Virus record (IMG/VR): IMGVR_UViG_3300022682_000027
Span: 1-40,370 of that record
DNA from: a virus
Direction: 5' to 3' (one strand)
Length of the DNA: 40,370 nt
The position numbers and the translations under genes were made by a program. The notes under the pieces were generated by a model that worked only from the letters and a program-made list of their open reading frames with translations, had not been told where the DNA came from and searched no databases. This document shows, piece after piece, positions 347 to 26,857 of the stretch (the stretch's first letter is position 1; each line of letters begins with the position of its first letter).

Positions 347-369
347 CCCCGCTCCGGCGGGGTTTTTTT
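347..369 (+). terminator. Rho-independent terminator
   Basis: The stem-loop CCCCGCTCCGGCGGGG is followed by seven T, ten bases after the stop of the small gene ending at 337. The same 16-base stem-loop occurs at 40307-40322 without the T run. The stop codon of the convergent lysis gene (368-370) overlaps the T run. Confidence 0.9.
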
Positions 370-835
370 ATGGTATCATGACGCCAATAGCGATCCCCCC
401 GAATAGGCACGCTACCCCAGTAATGATTTGATCACGGATCTTCTTCCTGGAGTAGGCTTTCAATGATGCTTTCGCCTTCTCCAATGAGTCCGTCAATGCG
501 TCCAGCCGCTCCCTCGCTTGCTGCAATGCTATCCTCAAGCTCTCTGAGGAGGCTTCGCTCTCGCTCAAGCTGTGCTGTAAGCTCTCCAGCTCGATCGATA
601 GCTGCCTGAGCTTCTCCTCTCGCTCTGACAAGAGCCGCTGCAAGGCGTCCTTGCTCATCTTCTGCTGCTGCAAGCTCTCTTGCAAGATCCCCAGCTCTAT
701 CCTCTGCTGCTTGAAGATCTCGGCTAACCTGAGCAGTTTCTCTCGATCCGATCCAGGTTCCGACCCATAGACCACCCAGGAAGATTGAAAGAGCAGTAAT
801 AATGATAATAACCCAGCCGATAATCTTCTCCACAT
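368..835 (-). CDS. Signal peptide/coiled-coil/C-terminal TM protein, spanin-like, out-of-frame partner
   Basis: The ATG at 835 overlaps the stop of the holin-like gene (TAATG) and gives 155 residues. Visible parts are a signal peptide (MWRRLSAGLLSLLLLF, likely cut after VYG near residue 24), a long E/Q/L/S-rich coiled coil (about 30-125) and a hydrophobic C-terminal segment (about 134-154). There is no lipobox cysteine, so it is not a classical Rz1 lipoprotein. A signal peptide plus C-terminal anchor recalls single-chain spanins. It is read over nearly the same DNA as the 432-833 gene, in another frame, with starts two bases apart. Codons look natural in both frames, and only this frame uses 368-431. 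Likely role: outer-membrane disruption at lysis. Confidence 0.6.
   Translation of the reverse strand: MWRRLSAGLLSLLLLFQSSWVVYGSEPGSDREKLLRLAEIFKQQRIELGILQESLQQQKMSKDALQRLLSEREEKLRQLSIELESLQHSLSESEASSESLRIALQQARERLDALTDSLEKAKASLKAYSRKKIRDQIITGVACLFGGIAIGVMIP
432..833 (-). CDS. Rz-like inner-membrane spanin
   Basis: The GTG at 833 starts a 133-residue protein with one N-terminal membrane anchor (about residues 4-28, rich in I/L/V/W) and a long Ala/Glu/Arg-rich coiled coil. This is the layout of inner-membrane spanin subunits, which span the periplasm and help fuse the two membranes at lysis. It shares the ribosome binding site (AAAGGGAAG, the end of the holin gene) with the ATG at 835 in the other frame. 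Codons show the G-rich first-position pattern of a real gene. It is last in the lysis cassette after the endolysin and holin-like genes. Spanins imply a Gram-negative host. Confidence 0.7.
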   Translation of the reverse strand: MEKIIGWVIIIITALSIFLGGLWVGTWIGSRETAQVSRDLQAAEDRAGDLARELAAAEDEQGRLAAALVRARGEAQAAIDRAGELTAQLERERSLLRELEDSIAASEGAAGRIDGLIGEGESIIESLLQEEDP

Positions 836-1131
836 TACTTCCCTTTGATCCCTTCGCCTATATTTCCGGTGGCCTCCCGGAGCCCGTATCGGGCAATGAC
901 AGCAGTGACAATCCCGGCTATCCCGGCACTCCCTGGGATTCCAAAGAGAATTTCAGCAACCCGCTGGAGGGCCGTGATTCTGTTCTCCTCGGCCACGGAG
1001 AGTAATCTGGTAACCCACACTCCGATTCCGTAGGCGGCAATCTGAACGATAATAATTGCGGCGATCCCGATAACGGCAAACTTGATGATCCGGCTATCTC
1101 CCAGTCTGTTGGTTGTTGGTTTGTAATCCAT
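835..1131 (-). CDS. Holin-like two-TM protein
   Basis: 98 residues with two hydrophobic segments: about residues 15-40 (IIKFAVIGIAAIIIVQIAAY) and 62-83 (a Gly/Ala/Ile-rich helix), and a basic C-terminal tail (EGIKGK). Size, topology and position between the endolysin and the spanin genes fit a class II holin or antiholin that permeabilises the inner membrane. The start follows the endolysin stop within three bases and its stop overlaps the next start (TAATG). No named holin family was recognised, so the call rests on topology and context. Confidence 0.6.
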   Translation of the reverse strand: MDYKPTTNRLGDSRIIKFAVIGIAAIIIVQIAAYGIGVWVTRLLSVAEENRITALQRVAEILFGIPGSAGIAGIVTAVIARYGLREATGNIGEGIKGK

Positions 1132-1132
1132 A

Positions 1133-1579
1133 TCATGCCTCGAATCCTATCAGTGCAAAATTGCCATATCCCCGGTCTGTTCCAACCGCAAGGATAGTTC
1201 CATCCATACTCCTGTTCCAGAAAATCACTGGGGGAGAGTTTTCAATCACAATGTCATATCCAAGGTGTACCTTCCCAAGCTGCTTGAAGTACTCCCGGTC
1301 ATTGTATTCAGTGGTGACTCGGATCCTCTTCCAATCTGCAAGTTCATTGTCTATGAAGTAGTGGATCTGCCGGTGTGCAGGGACAACGATGTTATCCTCC
1401 ATATCCTTGAGCCTCCAGAGGGAAGTCTGCCATCCTTCCACACAATCGATGTGTAGATGTGGTCCCGTTGACTGTCCGGTACTTCCCATCTCCCCGATCA
1501 CTGATCCCCTCTTGATCCTGTCCCCTGGATGCCAGATAACGGGGTGCTTCAAGTGTGCATACCTCACCGTGTACTTCAT
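1133..1579 (-). CDS. Endolysin, apparently circularly permuted M23 (LytM-type) peptidase
   Basis: 148 residues. ATG 1579 is chosen over the GTG at 1582 because GGAGG lies six bases upstream and the TGA of the previous gene overlaps it. M23 enzymes are zinc endopeptidases that cut peptidoglycan cross-bridges. Here the motifs are in swapped order. The usual second half comes first: YAHLK (H9), GDRIKRGSVIGEMGSTG, then GPHLHID (H41, H43). The usual first half comes last: HLGYD (H105, D109), ENSPPV, DGTILAVG and GYGNFALIGF near the C-terminus. All expected zinc ligands are present. The middle (about 50-100) would be an added linker. No signal peptide is seen, so export depends on the holin. It sits in the lysis cassette. 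Confidence 0.85.
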   Translation of the reverse strand: MKYTVRYAHLKHPVIWHPGDRIKRGSVIGEMGSTGQSTGPHLHIDCVEGWQTSLWRLKDMEDNIVVPAHRQIHYFIDNELADWKRIRVTTEYNDREYFKQLGKVHLGYDIVIENSPPVIFWNRSMDGTILAVGTDRGYGNFALIGFEA

Positions 1580-1923
1580 CACACACCTCCCAGGTTTGCA
1601 ATTGCAGAGATAATTAGGGAACCGGCAGACAATAGACTTGATACAACAATCCCGATGATCACAACATTCATCCGCTTGTCCCCCGACCGTTCCTCTTTCA
1701 TTTCTTTCAACGCATTCTGAATAACCAGAAACTCTTTCTCAACTTGCCTATAATCCTCAACACGATTTCTCCTACATTCTCCCTTCTCAACAAAGTTCCC
1801 CTGGATCATGTCTACTTCTTTCTCCACATCATCCATCCGTACAAGAAGCCCCTTACCGCCATTACCCCTGACATGATGTCTAAGGCTCTGTACTTCCTGT
1901 TTCAACTCAAGCGCATCTTCCAT
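1579..1923 (-). CDS. XhlA-like coiled-coil protein with C-terminal TM
   Basis: 114 residues. An N-terminal helical, charged region (about 1-85, heptad-like, VEKEVDMIQGNFVEKGE) is followed by a basic patch (EERSGDKRM) and one membrane segment (about 89-110). This is the layout of hemolysin XhlA-type lysis accessory proteins, which stay at the membrane and help the holin and endolysin. GGAG lies seven bases before the ATG at 1923. Its TGA overlaps the endolysin ATG, so translation is coupled. No enzymatic motif is seen. Confidence 0.55.
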   Translation of the reverse strand: MEDALELKQEVQSLRHHVRGNGGKGLLVRMDDVEKEVDMIQGNFVEKGECRRNRVEDYRQVEKEFLVIQNALKEMKEERSGDKRMNVVIIGIVVSSLLSAGSLIISAIANLGGV

Positions 1924-2357: not shown

Positions 2358-2852
2358 TTATTCTGTTGATACTCTACCAGCGTTTACTAATGATGCTGTT
2401 ATTTCTGTCCCCACCGATACACCACTAGATAATCGTTCTGACGTACTCCATGCGGTAGTATTTGTTCCATATATTTTTAATTTATTACCTACTGTTGCAT
2501 AACCTCTGCCATGTCTGGTTCTTGCATGAACCTTCCAATCAACAAGGGCTTGGTCTTCCACTAGCTTGACTACCCAACTACCACTTTCATACCGGGAAAT
2601 CTTTCCAAAACGGTTACCAGAAGCAGTCCAGTACTCCCATCGATACCCCCCACTACCAGCATTGACACTATGCCAATCACTAGAACCATCATATAGCTGT
2701 ACAGAACAGTTTGATGAGTTATTAGAAACAAAATATATATATCGATAAACAACACTGTCAGGAAAAAATCCAAGCTCTATAACACCTGCTACATATTCAT
2801 CGATACCATTAAGTGTTGAAGCGTATATTTTATCTCCTATATTTATTGCCAT
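2358..2852 (-). CDS. Tail-associated accessory (receptor-binding-like) protein
   Basis: 164 residues, rich in Ser, Tyr, Trp, Gly and Asn, with repeated short beta-strand-like stretches (YIYFVSNNSSNCSVQLYDGS, GGYRWEYWTASGNRF, GSWVVKLV), as in phage lectin-like or fibre-tip domains. Its ATG at 2852 overlaps the stop of the giant tail protein (TAATG), so the two are translated together. It is A+T-rich compared with the head genes. The family was not recognised; a role in host recognition is inferred from position and composition. Confidence 0.55.
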   Translation of the reverse strand: MAINIGDKIYASTLNGIDEYVAGVIELGFFPDSVVYRYIYFVSNNSSNCSVQLYDGSSDWHSVNAGSGGYRWEYWTASGNRFGKISRYESGSWVVKLVEDQALVDWKVHARTRHGRGYATVGNKLKIYGTNTTAWSTSERLSSGVSVGTEITASLVNAGRVSTE

Positions 2853-5800
2853 TATTTTATCCTCACTAGTTGTCTTTTATTTACTTTTACATCATTCCAT
2901 TCTTTTACATTCATTGATTTATAATAAGTTGCTATTACTCTTTCCGGATGTAGTATTCTTGTTAATAATCTTGCTTTGGTTAATTTTCCGTTTTTTGTCA
3001 CAGTTAATGGCGTTCCAGATGAGTATTCTTTATCGACATAAGCAAGAACAAATCCTGCTACAGATATAGGCAAATTATCGTAACTATCTACACCAATAAA
3101 CTCAGTGTTATCTTTGACAGCTTTGGTAGAGGAAGCCGTAAAAGTAGAGGTATCAGTTGTTATTCCTATGATTCCTTTTTCAGCATATTTATCCGCTTTC
3201 CTTGTAATTCCATTTTGGTCTCTCACATAACAATACCCATATTCTACGTCTACTCTATTATCTATTTCAATAGCATCTGCATAATCATTCCCCACTGCCC
3301 CAGTTATACCATTAGAAGTTGTAGATGCTTTTACGCTGCCATTATAGTAAAGTTGAAGCGATGAATTCTGAGTGTATTTAATGGCCCATTTACCAGTTTC
3401 ATCATCATACAATCCTGCTTGTGTGTCACTTCCCATAAACGACCAATGATTTCCTGTAGAACGGGTTATCTGAATACCACTCCAATCTGTTGAGCCAAGT
3501 TGATTTATCTCCAGCAAGCCACTTCTATCAGCAGCATCTCTGAGTAGAATACCATCAACTGTTGCTGAACCTCCTACAGTTAAGTCATTGGTTATACTTA
3601 ACCCGCTTTCTCTCAAGATCATTTCTTGATCTAAATCCACGGACACGTCTTCTGTAACATCACTTTTTAATTCAAAGGACATGTAAGCGCCAGTAGATGA
3701 ATCGACATTAACTTCTATTCTTCCAGCGTTCCCAGATCGATCCGGTATTTTACCAACATGATTAAATGTAAGATTAGCGTTACCACCACCATCGTTGATA
3801 GTCATCCCTACAGAGCCACTGCCATTCCCAGCTACGAAATAAGATGCTTCAACAGCATCGTCTACATATAAAGCTCCAGTAAGGGTTCCACCACTTAATG
3901 GCAGATAATCTCCTGTTATGCCTATATCTTCAGGTGCTACTTTTTTATGTGACGAGGTAGAAGCATCATAGATAATCAAGCTGTCATTTACTTCGTCAAC
4001 CGTATCTATAAGTGTTAAACCACTTATATCTGGAACGGTTGTCCCAGGGTCACCTTGATCACCTTGAGGCCCTTGAATACCCTGTGGCCCTTGTGGGCCA
4101 GTATCGCCCTGTGGCCCTTGTGGGCCTTGAACTCCCTGTGGTCCCTGTGGGCCTGTTGCTCCTGTTGGGCCAGTGGGACCAACAATTTCTACTGTATCAT
4201 TTATAAGTCCATTAAATGCAACAACCTTGCCATTCGGCCCCGGCTTGAGAATGATATCTTCTGCGGTATAGTCGGCTATCCATGGTTTCCCGGAGAGGTA
4301 ATGTTGGACAAACAGGTCAGCATTGCAACTACTATCTGTGGAAAAAAGAATATCATCTTGATAGCTTATATAATTTTCACCAGAAAATTGATTCCATGCG
4401 TAGATATATAGCTGATTTGTCGTTATTGTTCCTGATAAACTCAAATCATCAATCGTTGCAGTTTGCACAGTATCATTTACTATAAGCTTCATAATGTTAT
4501 TGGGAATATCAAGAATGAGACCTACCATATCCTCCAAAGATGCGGTTGCGTAGAGGTATTTGCGTTGAACATCTGCTCCTGATGCAAACTCCCAAAACTC
4601 TAAGGCATATTGATTTGTAGCTTCTCGATACTGGATAGAAATTTTATAAAAATCTGATCCATAACTGACACCCCAACCAACTATATCTCTATAGTTTGCT
4701 TGTGTGCCTGATCCAGTAACATATGAACAATAACTAAGCTGAGAAAACTCATCAGTGATGTCATAAATAAGTTTACCATCTTGACCAGAATTCCCGCCAA
4801 GTCCATATGCCCCGAACTTTTTCCATGCGGTTGTACGTACAGCTTCATCTACTGTATCAGGCACATCTCCATGTTGGTTTTCGAAAGTTGCACTTTCACA
4901 ATCAACTATCGAATAATTGCTGTTTGGCAATGGCTCAGCAGCGGGAGGATCACCTAAAGTGTTATAGATCCCCCCGCACCCGATAAAGGGAAGAAAATTA
5001 CCATCATCATCAGTGCCGCCAATCTTAATGCTCTTGACCGTTGTCCATGCACTGTTTGTGTAGACTCGTAATCCGATCTCATCTCCATCAATGTAAATCC
5101 TCCTATCTCCCTCGTCTGGGGAATCTATTGTTCCGGTTCCTTCGAAACCAACAGTTAGGGATCCGGATATATCACCAAAAAGTGCCTGAAGGAATCCGGT
5201 TACCATCCGGTTTGCGGCAATACTCCCAGCCGGAACCCACTCAGAAGGAAGTAGTGAAGTAGTCGCCGAAGCGTAAGTCCATCCAGACAGGTCTCCAAGT
5301 TTCGTGAGCTGCCGAAGCCGGTAGAACAATTCTCTTCCTTGCGGATCATTGGCATACGCTTCTTCTCCAGTGAGAGCCCCTACCGGCGGGATGTTAGGAT
5401 GGTAAAACCGACTTATCCGGTAATCGATTGCTGTCACCGCGTCCTGCACATCATCTCTCCAGTGAGTCCCGTCCATCTTGAGGCTATACCAGGGACCGCC
5501 GGATGAGGCTGCGACTTGGATTTCATACTGGTAGCCATTTGATAGTGACGCCTGGGGCGTCCAGGATAGTTCTATAGCACTGGTACCGAATGCCTCAGCA
5601 GCAATCGTGACGTCAGCTGGTGTGGTCGTGACTCCAGAAGTTGGGTTATCATATCCATCTTCCAGATCAGAATAGGTAGGTCTGTCATCAAGCTCTTCAT
5701 TCAATGTATCGGAAGATTCAGGGGCAGCAGACCCGGTATTTATCTCGATCGTATCCCCGGTAACTGGCGAGGGTTTCTCGACCACTTCAACGATCTCGAT

Positions 5801-7306
5801 TTCAGTGTACGCGTTCACCATAGGTCCACTCGGTGAGTGATGCTTATAACCGATGATTTTTCCGGTAAAGCTTTCCTCAGAATGTGGATCGTTGAAGGTG
5901 ATCCAAGCTCCGCGCTGGATATGCGGCATCCAGTAGGTACCGAACCGGACCGTCCGCCTGGCGGCTTTCCCTTGCTCAACTACGTACTGACAGACGTAAT
6001 TCGATATCTCACCGTCAGTCATCCACCGGCCATCGATCGGCTTTTCTACCAGGTCAACTTCGTCGACAAGAGACTCTGTGAACTCTACGCGATAGCGCTT
6101 ATTAATCCGGTAGGGAGTTCCGCGGATCTCAAACTTCGTAATTGTTATCGAAGATCCTCCGTTATTACGAAGGATGATCTCACAGCTTCCCGGCTTTTGG
6201 GCTGTTGCTGATGTAGACCCGTTGAATGATACAAGCTCCAGATTCGCGGGAGAATCGCACTCAATGTCAGAACCAGATCCAGTAGCTCCGATCGTGGGAG
6301 TCGTGACCGGCGTCGCGTACTCCCACCTCTCTCCAGAGTCAGGGTCTTTGAACTCAAGTCGGCCGATGGCAGATGAAGAAGCGCCACCTGGCCAGTATTC
6401 ACCTGCAGCAATCTCTATTGATATCTGTTTCGTGTAGGCGTTGTAGCTTTCAACACTTTTCCAGATCACCCTCGGCGCAAGGTTTTGGTAAGCGTCGTAT
6501 TCCACATAAGCTTTATTCGCCCGGATATCAGTCCGGTTGATCTTTAGCCGTGGGCTTTTGAAGATGTTATTGTACCCAGTAACGCCGAAAGTCCATTCCG
6601 AGGATGGATCTGAATATCCATCAGAGACCGGAGAACGGAACCTAAGTTTCCCATCATATCGCCAGTAAAGCTCACCGGCGAACGCTTCTTTCAGCTTCTT
6701 CAGTTCATCCCAAGCAGGCTTGTCACCGATCTGGATCACATCCTTCTCAACCGAAAGGGTATCTGCGTCCACATCACCTGAGGCAAGCCCGAGTTCGGAG
6801 GCGAGACGATGCACGATGCTGGTTGAAGGAGATGAAGGGTTACTGATCGCGAATGAAGAGAGAATTGCAGGGGATGGCTTTCTTCTAATGCCTTTCATTC
6901 TTGTGAGATCAACCAGGCGGAGCGATGCAGTCCGGTCGTAAGGCTCTCCCCCCTCTACCTGGATACCTTCCTCGTCAACATAACCGGTGAATACTCGTAT
7001 CCATGAAGTACTCCCAAGCTTCGCTTCAACTGCCGCAAGGAGCCCGGAATGCTGACCGTTGGAGAAAGAACCGTCGGTATTCCTGAGCTTGATCGTCCAC
7101 TGCTGGTAGTCCTGACGTGCTTCTCCGGCTATCTGATTATTGTCGATCGATGAGGTGAGGTTCTCTGACGCTTCGGAGAAATCTCCATCATCGTCTGTAT
7201 CGATAAGGAGCCGGTATTGACGTGAAGCGGTAAGGTCGGAAACGAGGTCATTAAATCCTGCATCGGTTGGAATGAAGTATGGCACCTTACGCCCCCAACC
7301 ATTCAA
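2852..7306 (-). CDS. Giant tail tip/central fibre protein with collagen-like stretch
   Basis: 1484 residues. The N-terminal ~480 residues read like a tail-hub protein (RQYRLLIDTDDDGDFSEASE, RDDVQD-type strands). A fibronectin-III-like domain follows around 565-650 (ELSWTPQASLSNGYQYEIQV). A jelly-roll or LamG-like stretch lies at about 800-980, then a collagen-like Gly-X-Y run at about 1042-1087, then a fibre domain with GGTLTGAL repeats. The last ~120 residues (ISVAGFVLAYVDKEY) somewhat resemble self-cleaving or trimerising fibre ends. It combines hub and fibre in one chain. The 7306 start is TTG and overlaps the tape-measure gene by 20 bases; a GTG 24 bases further in is an alternative. The last third is clearly more A+T-rich, suggesting exchange of the receptor-binding end. 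Confidence 0.8.
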   Translation of the reverse strand: MNGWGRKVPYFIPTDAGFNDLVSDLTASRQYRLLIDTDDDGDFSEASENLTSSIDNNQIAGEARQDYQQWTIKLRNTDGSFSNGQHSGLLAAVEAKLGSTSWIRVFTGYVDEEGIQVEGGEPYDRTASLRLVDLTRMKGIRRKPSPAILSSFAISNPSSPSTSIVHRLASELGLASGDVDADTLSVEKDVIQIGDKPAWDELKKLKEAFAGELYWRYDGKLRFRSPVSDGYSDPSSEWTFGVTGYNNIFKSPRLKINRTDIRANKAYVEYDAYQNLAPRVIWKSVESYNAYTKQISIEIAAGEYWPGGASSSAIGRLEFKDPDSGERWEYATPVTTPTIGATGSGSDIECDSPANLELVSFNGSTSATAQKPGSCEIILRNNGGSSITITKFEIRGTPYRINKRYRVEFTESLVDEVDLVEKPIDGRWMTDGEISNYVCQYVVEQGKAARRTVRFGTYWMPHIQRGAWITFNDPHSEESFTGKIIGYKHHSPSGPMVNAYTEIEIVEVVEKPSPVTGDTIEINTGSAAPESSDTLNEELDDRPTYSDLEDGYDNPTSGVTTTPADVTIAAEAFGTSAIELSWTPQASLSNGYQYEIQVAASSGGPWYSLKMDGTHWRDDVQDAVTAIDYRISRFYHPNIPPVGALTGEEAYANDPQGRELFYRLRQLTKLGDLSGWTYASATTSLLPSEWVPAGSIAANRMVTGFLQALFGDISGSLTVGFEGTGTIDSPDEGDRRIYIDGDEIGLRVYTNSAWTTVKSIKIGGTDDDGNFLPFIGCGGIYNTLGDPPAAEPLPNSNYSIVDCESATFENQHGDVPDTVDEAVRTTAWKKFGAYGLGGNSGQDGKLIYDITDEFSQLSYCSYVTGSGTQANYRDIVGWGVSYGSDFYKISIQYREATNQYALEFWEFASGADVQRKYLYATASLEDMVGLILDIPNNIMKLIVNDTVQTATIDDLSLSGTITTNQLYIYAWNQFSGENYISYQDDILFSTDSSCNADLFVQHYLSGKPWIADYTAEDIILKPGPNGKVVAFNGLINDTVEIVGPTGPTGATGPQGPQGVQGPQGPQGDTGPQGPQGIQGPQGDQGDPGTTVPDISGLTLIDTVDEVNDSLIIYDASTSSHKKVAPEDIGITGDYLPLSGGTLTGALYVDDAVEASYFVAGNGSGSVGMTINDGGGNANLTFNHVGKIPDRSGNAGRIEVNVDSSTGAYMSFELKSDVTEDVSVDLDQEMILRESGLSITNDLTVGGSATVDGILLRDAADRSGLLEINQLGSTDWSGIQITRSTGNHWSFMGSDTQAGLYDDETGKWAIKYTQNSSLQLYYNGSVKASTTSNGITGAVGNDYADAIEIDNRVDVEYGYCYVRDQNGITRKADKYAEKGIIGITTDTSTFTASSTKAVKDNTEFIGVDSYDNLPISVAGFVLAYVDKEYSSGTPLTVTKNGKLTKARLLTRILHPERVIATYYKSMNVKEWNDVKVNKRQLVRIK
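4044..4180 (-). repeat. Collagen-like Gly-X-Y coding repeat
   Basis: About 15 consecutive Gly-X-Y triplets (GPTGPTGATGPQGPQGVQG and onward to GDQGDPG) inside the giant tail protein. The DNA is a degenerate 9-base repeat rich in GGNCCNCAR. Such stretches form trimeric rods in phage fibres and are recombination-prone. Confidence 0.9.
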
Positions 7307-19007: not shown

Positions 19008-20401
19008 TACCAAGACTCCTTGCGGTAGCCAGCCATAACTCTGCGGCTCGACTTTGTTTTCCGCTTAACAGGTAGAATCTTCGGAGGCGAAATGTCTGCT
19101 ACACAGAGAGCAAGGCCATCTGCCCGGTCAGGGCTGGTGATCCCACGCTTTTTCATATCATCCTTCGACTCAAGGATCACTTTCCCGTCGGGCTTCACCT
19201 TGTAGTTCCGGCTGGTCATCTGCCCAACGAGATCCGCATCATCAGGAAGCTGCAGCACCGAAAGCCGGTCCTTCATGTCGGCCCATATCTTGGTACCTGC
19301 GTTCGCGTAGTCATCATCGCCAGCCCCCCCAAAATTGAAAGCTATCACAATGATATTTAGCTCCTGCTCAAGAAGGCGAAGGAAGTCCACGGGAGAAGAT
19401 CCGACGCCTGTCTCATCCACTCTGACCTGAATAGTCTGCTCATAGCCTGCAGCACGGTAGCTTTTCACAATCCTGGCAACCTCACCGGCGAGAGTAGGCC
19501 CGTCAAGCTGATAGAAACCCTCTATCGGGAAAACATGATTACCCTTCCGGTGACAGACTACGGACTCATCATCCCCGAACCGAGCAGGGTCAACCCCGAT
19601 AAACACCATACCCTCCGGATCCACTTCCTGGGTAATGGCAGCTTCGACCAGGTCAAGCCGGATAAACTGGGAAGGGCTCCCCAGGGGAAACTTACCCTCA
19701 ACACGAACCCGGTAGACATCAGATTCCTTGCCGTACTTCCTGGCGATCCTGTCGGCATAGGCGGGAGACACATTGTCGCTTTCGGTCGAACTGAAGGTAA
19801 ACCGCACATAGAAAGCAGCATCCCGGTGAAAGGCGTTGTAGAACGATCCTGAAAGGATGGTCGGGTTTCCAGCCATCAGGAGCTTTGCCCCATCATTGGT
19901 GAGAGCTCCCTCTACAACCTCCATGACGTTCTGGGCAACACCAGATGCCTCATCGATGACAAAAAGCAGGTGATCCGCATGGAACCCCTGCATATTCTCT
20001 GGCTTATTACTTGATCTCGGGACGGCAAACCAGGTATCGGCATACCCCTTGATGGCAAACCGTGTCTTTGTCCAGTCGTAGTCCTCGGCATTGATACTCT
20101 GGGCCGACCACTTACGAAGCTCCGGCCAGAGAAGGTCCTCAAGCTGGTGACCGGTTGGAGCGGTTGCGGGGACCCTACTTTCCGGAAACATGGTGAGAAA
20201 CCACTGGATCAGCCATGCTTCCATTGCGGTTTTTCCGGTGCCGTGACCTGACTTAACCGCTACTGCAGGATGTTCACCAATCGCCCTGAGGGCGTCACGC
20301 TGCTGGCTGGTAGGTTTTACCTCGATGATGTCTTCGACGAACCAATCAGGGTGTTCCTGATACTGCAGAATCTCGTGGTCACTCAGAAGATCGATCAGCA
20401 C
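19007..20401 (-). CDS. Terminase large subunit
   Basis: 464 residues from GTG 20401, which overlaps the end of the small subunit by 23 bases; GGGAG lies about 8 bases upstream. Further upstream the frame stays open, but only as a shadow of the small-subunit gene. Visible motifs: Walker A GHGTGKT (about residue 50), Walker B LLFVIDEAS (about 150) and the RNase H-like nuclease acids (VFIGVDPARFGDDES, VRVDETGVGSS, SPDRADGLAL). It packages DNA into proheads and cuts it. The type resembles enzymes of Mu-headed, non-transposing phages. A basic end (PVKRKTKSSRRVM) may contact the portal. Confidence 0.92.
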   Translation of the reverse strand: MLIDLLSDHEILQYQEHPDWFVEDIIEVKPTSQQRDALRAIGEHPAVAVKSGHGTGKTAMEAWLIQWFLTMFPESRVPATAPTGHQLEDLLWPELRKWSAQSINAEDYDWTKTRFAIKGYADTWFAVPRSSNKPENMQGFHADHLLFVIDEASGVAQNVMEVVEGALTNDGAKLLMAGNPTILSGSFYNAFHRDAAFYVRFTFSSTESDNVSPAYADRIARKYGKESDVYRVRVEGKFPLGSPSQFIRLDLVEAAITQEVDPEGMVFIGVDPARFGDDESVVCHRKGNHVFPIEGFYQLDGPTLAGEVARIVKSYRAAGYEQTIQVRVDETGVGSSPVDFLRLLEQELNIIVIAFNFGGAGDDDYANAGTKIWADMKDRLSVLQLPDDADLVGQMTSRNYKVKPDGKVILESKDDMKKRGITSPDRADGLALCVADISPPKILPVKRKTKSSRRVMAGYRKESW

Positions 20402-20846
20402 CGCGCTTCTCCCGAATCTCCTTGAGTCGGTCGAGGATACTCTGATCTGCAGAATGGTTGATGTTGACGGTCTGCTTGTAGATTCCTTCGAGCTCTGCGA
20501 GGTAGCGCTTTTGCTCCCTGAGCTCGGTGTAGAGCTTTCCGATTGCCTGGCTAAGGCCGACAAGTGGGGAGTCCTTTGGCCCCGCCTTGGGAGCATGATC
20601 GATGTCGCGTTCGGTTTTCTTGATTCTCCGCTCGATGCGGGTGATGTCATCACGGAGATCTGCGATCCGGTCCTCAAGCTCCCGGGATAGCTCACGGATC
20701 CCAACGCGCTGACTTCGGCACCAAGCAAGACCGCGCTCAACAGTGCGAGAAGAAACATCGTACATCTCGCCGATCTGCTCAAGAGTCTTCCCATCCTTGT
20801 GGTGGAAGTAATACTCGATGTATTTTTGTTTGGCTGTTGAAAGCAC
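20379..20846 (-). CDS. Terminase small subunit
   Basis: 155 residues from GTG 20846, preceded by GAGGAAAGG; a GTG at 20870 would add eight Arg-rich residues but lacks a site. It has an N-terminal helix-turn-helix (DGKTLEQIGEMYDVSSRTVE), then a long coiled coil (ELEDRIADLRDDITRIERRI) for oligomerisation, as in small terminases that mark viral DNA for packaging. It lies directly upstream of, and overlapping, the large subunit. Confidence 0.8.
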   Translation of the reverse strand: MLSTAKQKYIEYYFHHKDGKTLEQIGEMYDVSSRTVERGLAWCRSQRVGIRELSRELEDRIADLRDDITRIERRIKKTERDIDHAPKAGPKDSPLVGLSQAIGKLYTELREQKRYLAELEGIYKQTVNINHSADQSILDRLKEIREKRGADRSSE

Positions 20847-20891
20847 ACCCTTTCCTCTTCGCCTCCTCACGCGTGGGGCTTGGACACTCTT

Positions 20892-23257: not shown

Positions 23258-23414
23258 ACATTCCTCCTGTGATGGGGAGCGCAAGGACTCCCGCTGCTTT
23301 GGTTATTCCTACTTCCCACGCTCGCCTGATAGCTTCGGCGGCCGAAGCCGCCTCAACTGTCCCGAGAAGGACGTCGCCATCCTTCCTGGTGTCCCATATT
23401 TCGCATAACATCAT
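23202..23414 (-). CDS. Small unknown protein overlapping ssb
   Basis: 70 residues. The ATG at 23414 overlaps the TGA of the nuclease gene. It begins MMLCEIWDTRKDGDVLLGTV, followed by EAASAAEAIRRAWEVG, a strand-strand-helix start like small phage proteins that carry an AAEA-type helix. The last ~18 codons overlap ssb in another frame and include its ribosome binding site, so the C-terminus may be tolerated filler. Function unknown. Confidence 0.6.
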   Translation of the reverse strand: MMLCEIWDTRKDGDVLLGTVEAASAAEAIRRAWEVGITKAAGVLALPITGGMYGPGYQPGNDHRQTHQGC

Positions 23415-26400
23415 GCTGCTCCCTTTGCACTCGCCTCGGTGAGCTCATCCATGACAATCTTCTCGATAAGCATCTCCTGGATCTCCCGGGAATGGGTGAT
23501 GATGATCGTGTGGCTTCGTCCGGACTGCCGGTGAGCCTCTTCGATCATCCGGTAGAACCTCTCTTTCGCTTCCGGATCCAGGGCACCATCTGCCTCATCC
23601 TGTATTGCCGTGAGAAACTGAATGCCGGTGTTCTTCGCACGAATGATACCGAACGCGTCATAGATCGCTTTCTTTATCCAGACGCCTTCACCTCCTGAGA
23701 GGGTACTGAGCTCCTGCTCGCTTCCGGATTCGGTGTCATGGATGTAGATAAGAAAGTCCTCGATCTGCTTCGTTTTCTTTCCGGATCCGCCGATCCTTGT
23801 AGTTCGGAATTCAACCCGGAAACGGCTGTCGTACGCTGCCTGAAGGAGGCTATTTGCTACCTGGGCGATAGACGGGGCGAGGTTGTCCAGCTCAAGTGCC
23901 TGAATCCCGTCAGGACCGCACGCCCTTGAGAGTAATCCCCATTCGTCAGCATCGTGTTTCTGTTTCACTGATTCTGATCGTATCTTCTCAGCCTTCTTCC
24001 CGGTTTCTTTGAGCTCATCAATTGCCCTGGTGTAGTAATCAATATTGTTCGTGATCTGCCGGACCTCTTCAGTTACTCGCTCAATTTCGATCTGCAGCTC
24101 CTCACGGGCCGTGGTGGCATCCTCAAGCGCTCCTTGAAGTCCATGTACCAAAACCGCCTCTTCAAGCTTCCTGACGGCACCACTGAGCTCTGCTTCCTGT
24201 TTTTCGAGCATGCCGATCTTTTCTTCTGCTGCTTCGATCTTCGCATGGGCGACCTCAGCCCGGCTTACCACTTCCCGTTCTGCATCCGGTTCGATCCATT
24301 CAAGGTCAGCGTTAATCTGTTCCAGCTCCCCCTGGCGTGGGAATAGAACAGGATACACTTCTTCAGGGTCTTCGACCCCTTCAATCTGAGCATCGTAAGC
24401 ACCGATCGCTTCATTGATGCCGATAAGCTCTTTCTGGTGCCGGTCTCGTTCTTCCTCAAGCTTTTTCCGTTCGTCCATCCATGCTTCAAGGCGATCAGCA
24501 GGCCAGCTCTGCCCGCAAGTAGGGCAGGAATCAGACACTTCCTCGGAAAGCTTCTCGCCGATTGTGTTGATCCTAGTGTTGAGTGCATTCTGTCGGATTA
24601 CCTTTTCTGTCTTGAGTTTCTCTATTCTCTTCCGTTCATCATTTGCTTCCTTCTGTTTCCGGTAATACGCGTCCTTCTGATGGGATATCTTTTCTTGATA
24701 CCTAGAGAATTCCTTTTCAATCTCCTGCTTCTTAGAAGTGAGATCCCGATATTCACTCAATGCTTTTTCGGCTGATCCCTTCTTCTCAACAGCCCTCTCG
24801 TAGGTTCTGATCTCATCTCTAAGCTCTCCGATTTGATGGATCACTTCTCCGAGCTTGTACTCAGCTTCCTGACGCTGCTTTTGGGCTTCCTCCTGTTTTT
24901 CCATGCGCTTGAGAAGGTCAGCCTCTTTTGCAGTGATAGCTTCGTATCGTTCCTGCAGCGGTGGGATGGCTTTCTTTTTCTCAGCTTCATCCTCCTTGGC
25001 CTGGGAAAAAGATCCTTCAAGGTCAGCTTTTTTGGAGAGCTGCTCATCAAGTACATGCAGCTTACCAGCATTGAGATTCACCTCTGCCATGATTGATTTC
25101 TCTTTCTCCCTTGCCGTATCGCTAAAGCCCTGCAGGTAATCAAGTCCTGCCAGCTCACGGAAAAGACTCTTGCGCTCTCCCTTGGTTGCGTCAGAGAGGT
25201 CAGGGTTTCCTTTCGTCGATCGCTGGGAGATGAATGCACTTCTGAGGTACAGAGAGAGGGACCCGAATAGCGAATCAATCGCGATCATGTAAGGCTCTTT
25301 CCTGCCATTGATCTCAGGAAGGGGAGCCCACTCGCTATTGCCTGACCTGCTGTAGAGGTAGTATTCGACCGATCCTGATTTGTTCTGTCCATCGATCTTC
25401 ATGATTGACCGGTACTGGACGCCGGTCCTCTCGTCGGTAAAGTCAATCTCTCTCCAGCTGTCCCGAAGAAAAAAGTGATCCTGGAGCTTCCCGTCGCGGG
25501 TAAGAAGGCTCGGCCATGGGTGCATATTCTCAATGAGGGTAGTTTTCCCTTTCCCGTTCGAGCCGATGAGTCCGATCAACCCAGGGGAATAATCCCGGAA
25601 ATCGATCTCAATCGTCTCAAGGCCGGTGCCTCGATTGATCCCGATTGCTCCCCGGAGGCTAAGACGATCTAGCCTGATCGCAGCCCCCCCATGGCCGGAA
25701 GCGCCTTTTTCGGCCTCAGCTTCCAGCTCATCCGCCTTTTGTAGTATACTTTTTGATACATCTTGAGATGAGTTTTCAAGGTAAATCTTGAGTTTATCCT
25801 TGAGGTGCTCAGCCTCGGCAATCTCTCCGGCCCGAACTGTCTCGGTCGGGAGGATGTTCAGGGTTACCCGGGAACCAGGAAGCGCTCCGCGGGAAGTGGT
25901 AAGGTCGTCAAGAATGTGATCGATATTCGGCGCGTCCTCCGCTCTGCAGGTAATCTCTACCCAGGTAAGCTTTCCGGACACGTCGGATTCATAACTCCAC
26001 ATCGAATTGGTGGTAGCTTCGATCTTCACCCGCTGAGGCTGGGGGAGCTGGATCCGCTCGACAGATACCTTGTGATCTTCGAAGAGATCGTCACCGTCCT
26101 CGATGGTAACCAGGTTAAACCCAGCCTGATGAGTCTCCCCCCAGTTCGTTGGATAGATAGATCCCGGGTAGTAGGCTTGCAGGTCTCCGATCCTCTGGGG
26201 CTCGTGGATATCTCCCAGGGCGATATAGTCAGCCCCAACGGAGGCCAGTTCGTCATAGGTAACCGCCATTCCAGAAGAATCAGCGGTCCAGCCGGTTGCA
26301 CTCTTGCTTCCAACTACCTGCCCGTGGTATAATAACAGCGTCGGTAAGTCTTTTTCCTTTGTGGCTGCCAACCCAAGAAACAGACTTTTTAACGCCGATC

Positions 26401-26857
26401 GGGCCGCCTCACTGGCGGCTTCTTTCATTTCAGCCATGATCCACTTCTTCGATGGCTCTGGTACACCGAAAATCTGCAGTGATGCGGAGGGCCCGCGATT
26501 TGCAACGACCCGCTCTTTCTCCAGGTAGTAACTTACGCCCGGCTGCAGGATGGTTATTCCCCAGCGGCTTTCGACCTGACTAAAGATATCAAGGCTACCT
26601 GCTGCATCATGGGAAGGGGTACCGTAGATCATCACCACAGGGGCGATATCAGCAAGTAGCCTAATCCTCTCGACAAACTCGTTGAACATACTTCCTGCTG
26701 AATTTGCAATCGGTCCGTCCCAAGTATCCCCTGCAATTGCGATCACATCAGGGTTCTGTTTTTTCGCTTCTTCCTGGATAGTCTCGAGACTCCTGAAGCA
26801 TTCTTCTGCCCGGGAGGCACGAAGGTGTAAGTCTGCTGTGTGAAAAATGGTGATCAT
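23411..26857 (-). CDS. Fused SbcD-SbcC (Mre11-Rad50) nuclease/ATPase
   Basis: 1148 residues, one chain for what is usually two proteins. Residues 1-~390 are the Mre11-type phosphoesterase: TADLH (D9, H11), AGDTWDG (D44), YGTPSHD, LLYHGQVVG and YIALGDIHEP. From about 405 comes the SbcC/Rad50 ATPase: Walker A GSNGKGKTT (about 430), two long coiled coils, the zinc hook CPTCGQSWP (about 775), the signature LSGGEG (about 1050) and Walker B TAIQDEAD (about 1090), ending with the ITHS switch. It trims DNA ends and hairpins. The ATG at 26857 overlaps the previous stop. It is the largest gene of the replication block and probably feeds a strand-annealing pathway. Confidence 0.93.
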   Translation of the reverse strand: MITIFHTADLHLRASRAEECFRSLETIQEEAKKQNPDVIAIAGDTWDGPIANSAGSMFNEFVERIRLLADIAPVVMIYGTPSHDAAGSLDIFSQVESRWGITILQPGVSYYLEKERVVANRGPSASLQIFGVPEPSKKWIMAEMKEAASEAARSALKSLFLGLAATKEKDLPTLLLYHGQVVGSKSATGWTADSSGMAVTYDELASVGADYIALGDIHEPQRIGDLQAYYPGSIYPTNWGETHQAGFNLVTIEDGDDLFEDHKVSVERIQLPQPQRVKIEATTNSMWSYESDVSGKLTWVEITCRAEDAPNIDHILDDLTTSRGALPGSRVTLNILPTETVRAGEIAEAEHLKDKLKIYLENSSQDVSKSILQKADELEAEAEKGASGHGGAAIRLDRLSLRGAIGINRGTGLETIEIDFRDYSPGLIGLIGSNGKGKTTLIENMHPWPSLLTRDGKLQDHFFLRDSWREIDFTDERTGVQYRSIMKIDGQNKSGSVEYYLYSRSGNSEWAPLPEINGRKEPYMIAIDSLFGSLSLYLRSAFISQRSTKGNPDLSDATKGERKSLFRELAGLDYLQGFSDTAREKEKSIMAEVNLNAGKLHVLDEQLSKKADLEGSFSQAKEDEAEKKKAIPPLQERYEAITAKEADLLKRMEKQEEAQKQRQEAEYKLGEVIHQIGELRDEIRTYERAVEKKGSAEKALSEYRDLTSKKQEIEKEFSRYQEKISHQKDAYYRKQKEANDERKRIEKLKTEKVIRQNALNTRINTIGEKLSEEVSDSCPTCGQSWPADRLEAWMDERKKLEEERDRHQKELIGINEAIGAYDAQIEGVEDPEEVYPVLFPRQGELEQINADLEWIEPDAEREVVSRAEVAHAKIEAAEEKIGMLEKQEAELSGAVRKLEEAVLVHGLQGALEDATTAREELQIEIERVTEEVRQITNNIDYYTRAIDELKETGKKAEKIRSESVKQKHDADEWGLLSRACGPDGIQALELDNLAPSIAQVANSLLQAAYDSRFRVEFRTTRIGGSGKKTKQIEDFLIYIHDTESGSEQELSTLSGGEGVWIKKAIYDAFGIIRAKNTGIQFLTAIQDEADGALDPEAKERFYRMIEEAHRQSGRSHTIIITHSREIQEMLIEKIVMDELTEASAKGAA

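Follow-up and report, generated by a model that had tools for sequence, protein, structure and literature searches.

The window, a complete IMG/VR record of 40,370 bases, belongs to a temperate tailed phage with a Mu-like portal and protease, a terminase and an integrase. At its left end, two long reading frames share almost all of their DNA, which raises the question of whether both encode proteins and what a phage would do with such a pair. A Spirochaetales genome, at 58% identity, is among the closest relatives of the terminase, and the phage is a virus of spirochaete bacteria. The two frames belong to the lysis module, which lies at this end of the window on the minus strand and has the following features.

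1579-1923, minus strand: small coiled coil with a C-terminal transmembrane segment, 114 residues, a neighbor in the lysis cassette (comparable small proteins are present in other cassettes).
1133-1582, minus strand: M23 peptidase, putative endolysin (Pfam PF01551, E 1.6e-13; PHROG endolysin, E 4e-13).
835-1131, minus strand: holin-like protein, 98 residues, two hydrophobic segments (assigned by size, hydropathy and position; no family match).
838-846, minus strand: Shine-Dalgarno-like AAAGGGAAG, common to both starts, 6 and 8 nt from them in a scan.
833-837, minus strand: TAATG, the stop of the holin-like gene overlapping the ATG of frame A, read from the sequence.
368-835, minus strand: frame A, start ATG 835-833, 155 codons, stop 368-370; a hydrophobic, signal-peptide-like N-terminus, a long coiled coil and a C-terminal hydrophobic anchor.
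764-835, minus strand: signal-peptide-like region of frame A, residues 1-24 (hydropathy; helix break at 24-29).
432-833, minus strand: frame B, start GTG 833-831, 133 codons, stop 432-434; an N-terminal transmembrane segment and a long coiled coil, nested in frame A.
747-824, minus strand: N-terminal transmembrane segment of frame B, residues about 4-29 (hydropathy).
441-746, minus strand: dual-coded coil with heptads in both frames (z 4.2 for A and 5.9 for B), phase difference -2 degrees.
371-427, minus strand: C-terminal anchor of frame A, residues 137-155, IITGVACLFGGIAIGVMIP, coded entirely 3' of the frame B stop.

Frame B starts at +2 nt relative to frame A, and its codons begin on the third codon positions of A. 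The initial annotation had described two coding frames that overlap almost totally and are served by one ribosome site, the second product being no lipoprotein. The layout agrees: the Shine-Dalgarno-like sequence precedes both ATG 835 and GTG 833, B is wholly nested in A, and neither product has a lipobox, B having no cysteine at all and A only one, within its C-terminal anchor and far from the N-terminus. The TAATG overlap likely couples translation of the holin-like gene to that of frame A, and the signal peptide of A is likely cut near VYG/SEP. AlphaFold predicts helices at residues 2-23 and 30-153 of A, with a break at 24-29 (pLDDT 91.6), and a continuous helix at residues 2-131 of B (pLDDT 95.1); the long helices would have 124 and 130 residues and measure about 190 angstrom. 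The stop codon of A falls inside the T-run of a terminator-like hairpin (347-370) that serves a convergent plus-strand ORF at 56-337. Elsewhere on the minus strand, 23411-26857 encodes a 1148-residue protein with SbcD-like and SbcC-like halves joined in a single chain, and 2852-7306 a tail protein with collagen-like GPQGPQG repeats. About 150 N-terminal residues of the terminase ORF (20402-20848, minus strand) have no counterpart in its relatives, and the true terminase start is probably near 20401.

Single-sequence searches with frame A or B found no matches in IMG/VR and 50,697 phage records, nor did the endolysin and the terminase as single queries, and relatives were reached through alignment of terminases. 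A related virus record found in this way has lysis-region frames of 156 and 135 residues, their starts separated by 4 nt. Their register is that of the window pair and their 3' overhang is 67 nt (64 nt in the window), although the proteins are less than 20% identical to those of the window. Further pairs came from a second virus record and from Spirochaetota genomes. A frame A profile was then searched over genomes of Spirochaetota (393), the class Negativicutes (350), Desulfobacterota (247), Clostridia (255) and Synergistota (188). Because the profile also attracts long ORFs of coiled-coil type in every phylum, a match alone does not indicate membership, and pairs were called by a mechanical detector that requires a second-frame start within 40 nt and hydrophobic ends correctly placed. 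Its yield was 67 distinct pairs, every one of them in a single register, with none in the alternative control register. Among the best frame A loci, chosen blind to B, frame B is present at 21 of 23 in Spirochaetota and at 28 of 30 in Negativicutes, the 28th of these (L266) read by eye. No pair was detected among the 30 best loci in each of Clostridia (monoderm), Desulfobacterota and Synergistota, a sample short of a full census. Desulfobacterota and Synergistota are both diderm, so an outer membrane alone does not predict the pair. Confinement of the family to Spirochaetota was dropped as an idea, as a non-spirochaete "control" locus in Phascolarctobacterium (L252) has the pair. The trees of A and B agree on most well-supported groups. 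One Treponema genome (G311) carries at least four copies (L207, L213, L222 and L224), in which the A signal peptides are identical but the A tails differ.

Both frames are under selection. When the window's A protein is kept and its codons are redrawn, B remains open with an N-terminal transmembrane segment in 1.2% of draws; when B is kept instead, an A frame with both hydrophobic ends persists in 1.0%. Survival is also low in the other pairs (0.03-5% for B given A, 0.1-12% for A given B). Against family HMMs built without the window, its B scores 39.3 bits, while the best of 300 A-preserving controls reaches 25.9, and its A scores 65.1 bits, the best of 300 B-preserving controls reaching 51.2. 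With a transition bias of 3, B shows fewer or milder changes than expected given A in 44 of 46 moderately related pairs, and A is likewise over-conserved given B in 38 of the 46, counts that are not independent events since the compared pairs share ancestry. The picture is unchanged without transition bias, and most exceptions come from comparisons that are very close or very small. Stops in one frame among relatives had been set beforehand as evidence against two genes, as had constraint confined to a single frame; no such stops were found except in a few visibly broken copies, and constraint is seen on both sides in most related pairs. Conservation, profile scores and codon-redraw controls thus bear out the reading of two coding frames, and dual coding of two conserved proteins is very nearly certain.

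The heptads indicate how the genetic code accommodates such an overlap. Heptad periodicity is present and in phase in both frames of all 67 pairs (mean z 4.6 for A and 5.5 for B), with an A-B phase difference of 1 degree and a resultant of 0.98. The first two bases of an A codon are the last two of a B codon, so a TTR leucine in A always writes Phe, Leu, Ile or Val in B. TTR accounts for 614 of 1008 leucine codons (61%) in the frame A coils, so the "natural codon use" first ascribed to the frames is not quite right. The amplitude of the B periodicity is 0.144, against 0.104 with A kept and codons redrawn, and part of it comes free with the code; the excess is significant in 46 of the 67 pairs, the window not being one of them (P 0.10). 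When 27 ordinary coiled-coil segments are shifted in this way, their periodicity is weak and stops arise at 5.9 per 100 codons. In-phase heptads, with TTR leucines forcing hydrophobic residues in the other frame, explain why this kind of dual coding is feasible. A profile match between A and B was not accepted as homology, as it covers only the coil, and matches to solved structures are to generic coiled coils only.

The arrangement of the starts is restricted as well. The spacing is -4 nt (ATGAATG) in 25 and +2 nt (ATGTG) in 14 of the 67 pairs, together 39. Where the starts lie within 10 nt, 48 of 58 pairs have a Shine-Dalgarno match of at least 4 nt located 2-13 nt before the first start. 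We infer that both frames are translated and that ribosomes at one site choose between two start codons; if true, this choice would fix the proportion in which the two are made.

Seven unrelated endolysin families (M23, M15/VanY, CHAP, C39-like, Amidase_2, Amidase_3 and GH25) are represented among the genes that precede the pair, which by this position behaves like an accessory lysis function. Small transmembrane proteins accompany it in lysis cassettes. In four Mu-like Treponema prophages (L236, L237, L238 and L242), a C39-like peptidase (tested for L237) and a transmembrane protein of 85-97 residues stand directly before the pair; the latter has no family match and looks like a holin. A canonical lipobox (LSGC, LAAC, LSSC, FSGC or CTGC) is found in B of 12 Treponema-type pairs in two tree groups. 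The net charge after the A anchor is +3 to +4 in exactly these 12 pairs, at most +2 in 54 others and 0 in one pair with a doubtful lipobox. This fits B being an outer-membrane, o-spanin-like lipoprotein in the lipobox pairs, and A a type I inner-membrane protein with a positively charged anchor. Candidate lipoboxes in L156, L180, L183 and L184 were rejected or left doubtful, as hydrophobic residues continue past the cysteine. In lipobox-free pairs, a basic-aromatic stretch (FWR, RTQRN-W) recurs just before the A anchor (for example in L161, L180, L182, L264 and L281). Near-threshold matches to Rz-like spanins were obtained for window B (phrog_214), window A (phrog_312) and two B relatives (phrog_739), and are weak in a setting where coiled coils match one another promiscuously.

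The pair shares features with several known systems. As in lambda Rz/Rz1, a single stretch of a lysis cassette with endolysin and holin (the holin by size and hydropathy only) carries two envelope genes out of frame with each other, and A relates to B by the +1 register, as Rz1 does to Rz. B resembles an i-spanin, with hydropathy and the modeled helix predicting an N-terminal, type II transmembrane domain and a periplasmic coil. In embedded spanins of the lambda class, however, the o-spanin gene starts inside the i-spanin gene, at 0.4-0.5 of its length in about 70% of pairs (Kongari et al. 2018, PMC6139136); here the starts are within a few bases, the overlap is almost full, and both products are long coils. 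The cysteine content of the window pair leaves no place for intermolecular disulfides. The overlapped or separated spanins of P2 and T4 are also two-part systems next to holin and endolysin, but their overlap is partial or absent, in contrast to one nearly complete from the start codons. T1 gp11, a unimolecular spanin, has an exported N-terminus and a C-terminal transmembrane segment, as does A, but it is an N-terminal lipoprotein working alone, and A has no lipobox and always occurs with B. The C-terminal half of TIGR04211 (SH3_and_anchor) matches the coil and anchor of A (residues 39-155 only) at 36.1 bits, below the curated cut-off of 65, and A lacks the SH3 domain. The pair is called spanin-like, not spanin, because the window and most relatives have no clear lipobox in either product. 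The initial label "spanin-like" is supported, though not proven, by the place in the lysis cassette beside seven endolysin types and by the lipoprotein B of 12 relatives; the window pair fails the strict two-component definition.

The favored reading, with a probability of about three in four, is that the pair is a two-component spanin-like system, co-initiated and overlapping almost in full, for outer-membrane disruption in phages of diderm hosts. Once the holin had released the M23 endolysin, two envelope proteins would be needed to disrupt the outer membrane. A single ribosome site would serve both, with initiation at either ATG 835 or GTG 833. B would be held by its N-terminus, and A would be exported by its signal peptide and held by its C-terminus, and their helices of 100-130 residues would run alongside each other in the periplasm and form a coiled coil in register. 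Peptidoglycan would cage the helix pair until cut by the endolysin, and its collapse would then join the membranes, as proposed for Rz/Rz1. Computation shows the two conserved frames, the in-phase heptads, the common start region, the place in the lysis cassette and the absence from the monoderm sample; the pairing, the topology and the outer-membrane disruption are inferred. The register kept in 67 pairs, the two-frame constraint, the endolysin neighbors, the lipoprotein variants of B, the presence in diderm Spirochaetota and Negativicutes with none in 30 Clostridia loci, the Rz-like matches and the predicted helix length all point to this role. Counting against it are the general lack of a clear lipobox, the empty best loci of two diderm phyla, the near-threshold level of those matches and a copy in the Treponema pallidum group outside any visible prophage.

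That copy (L233:5974-7569, genome G091) follows genes for a VanY-type D,D-carboxypeptidase and RsbU/RsbV-like proteins; within 14 kb no phage genes were seen, and the copy is possibly a domesticated lysis cassette. Its frame A is TP0222 by position and by a published polymorphism, E46D at position 228259 (PMC10013896), which fits residue 46 of frame A; one frame had thus been seen before without the other. Frame B at this locus is apparently unannotated.

A real pair with another envelope task, such as holin/antiholin control, an endolysin brake, superinfection exclusion or non-lytic protein release, is unlikely. It would suit the many members without a lipobox and the persistence of the TP0222-frame copy beside a D,D-carboxypeptidase, but it sits poorly with the constant place after so many unrelated endolysins, with the lipoprotein variants of B and with two predicted helices of a length suited to crossing the periplasm and not to a small membrane regulator. 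That A acts as a unimolecular-spanin-like protein with B as its regulator is very improbable: A is u-spanin-like in outline, with its exported N-terminus and C-terminal anchor, but it has no lipobox, and in relatives it is B, not A, that becomes a lipoprotein. Hardly credible, and regarded as already refuted by the two-sided conservation, is the notion that only one frame is a gene and the other is open as a side effect of low-complexity coiled-coil sequence; the heptads of A do impose some periodicity on the shifted frame, the window's B periodicity does not exceed that null, and the window by itself yields a P of only about 0.01 in codon redraws, but none of the 27 ordinary segments is both open and strongly heptad when shifted, and the profile scores, the fixed register and a true lipobox in B of 12 pairs also argue against it.

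Within the spanin-like reading, a more specific and tentative possibility, itself rather doubtful, is a lipoprotein-free class of spanin in most lineages, including that of the window. B would sit in the inner membrane and the C-terminal helix of A, after its basic stretch, in the outer membrane. The roles would be swapped in Treponema denticola-type lineages, with B an outer-membrane lipoprotein and A bearing a cytoplasmic positive tail. Either way there would be two in-register rods with each heptad encoded twice.

Spirochaete phages are absent from the spanin survey of Kongari et al. (2018, PMC6139136), and a 2025 survey of lytic proteins (PMC12596118) does not mention spirochaetes. No description of spanins from spirochaetes or Negativicutes was found in the largely open-access literature searched. 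We think that the near-total, co-initiated overlap is new in detail among two-component spanin-type lysis systems. More than 100 codons of two structured proteins held in two frames across two bacterial phyla are an unusual case of dual coding. Kongari et al. named a type I, C-anchored topology as conceivable for an i-spanin, only as speculation, and the pair supplies a concrete candidate for it. At many annotated loci, TP0222 of Treponema pallidum among them, frame B is predicted as a missing gene, and the pair offers a candidate outer-membrane disruption system for the phages of spirochaetes and Negativicutes.
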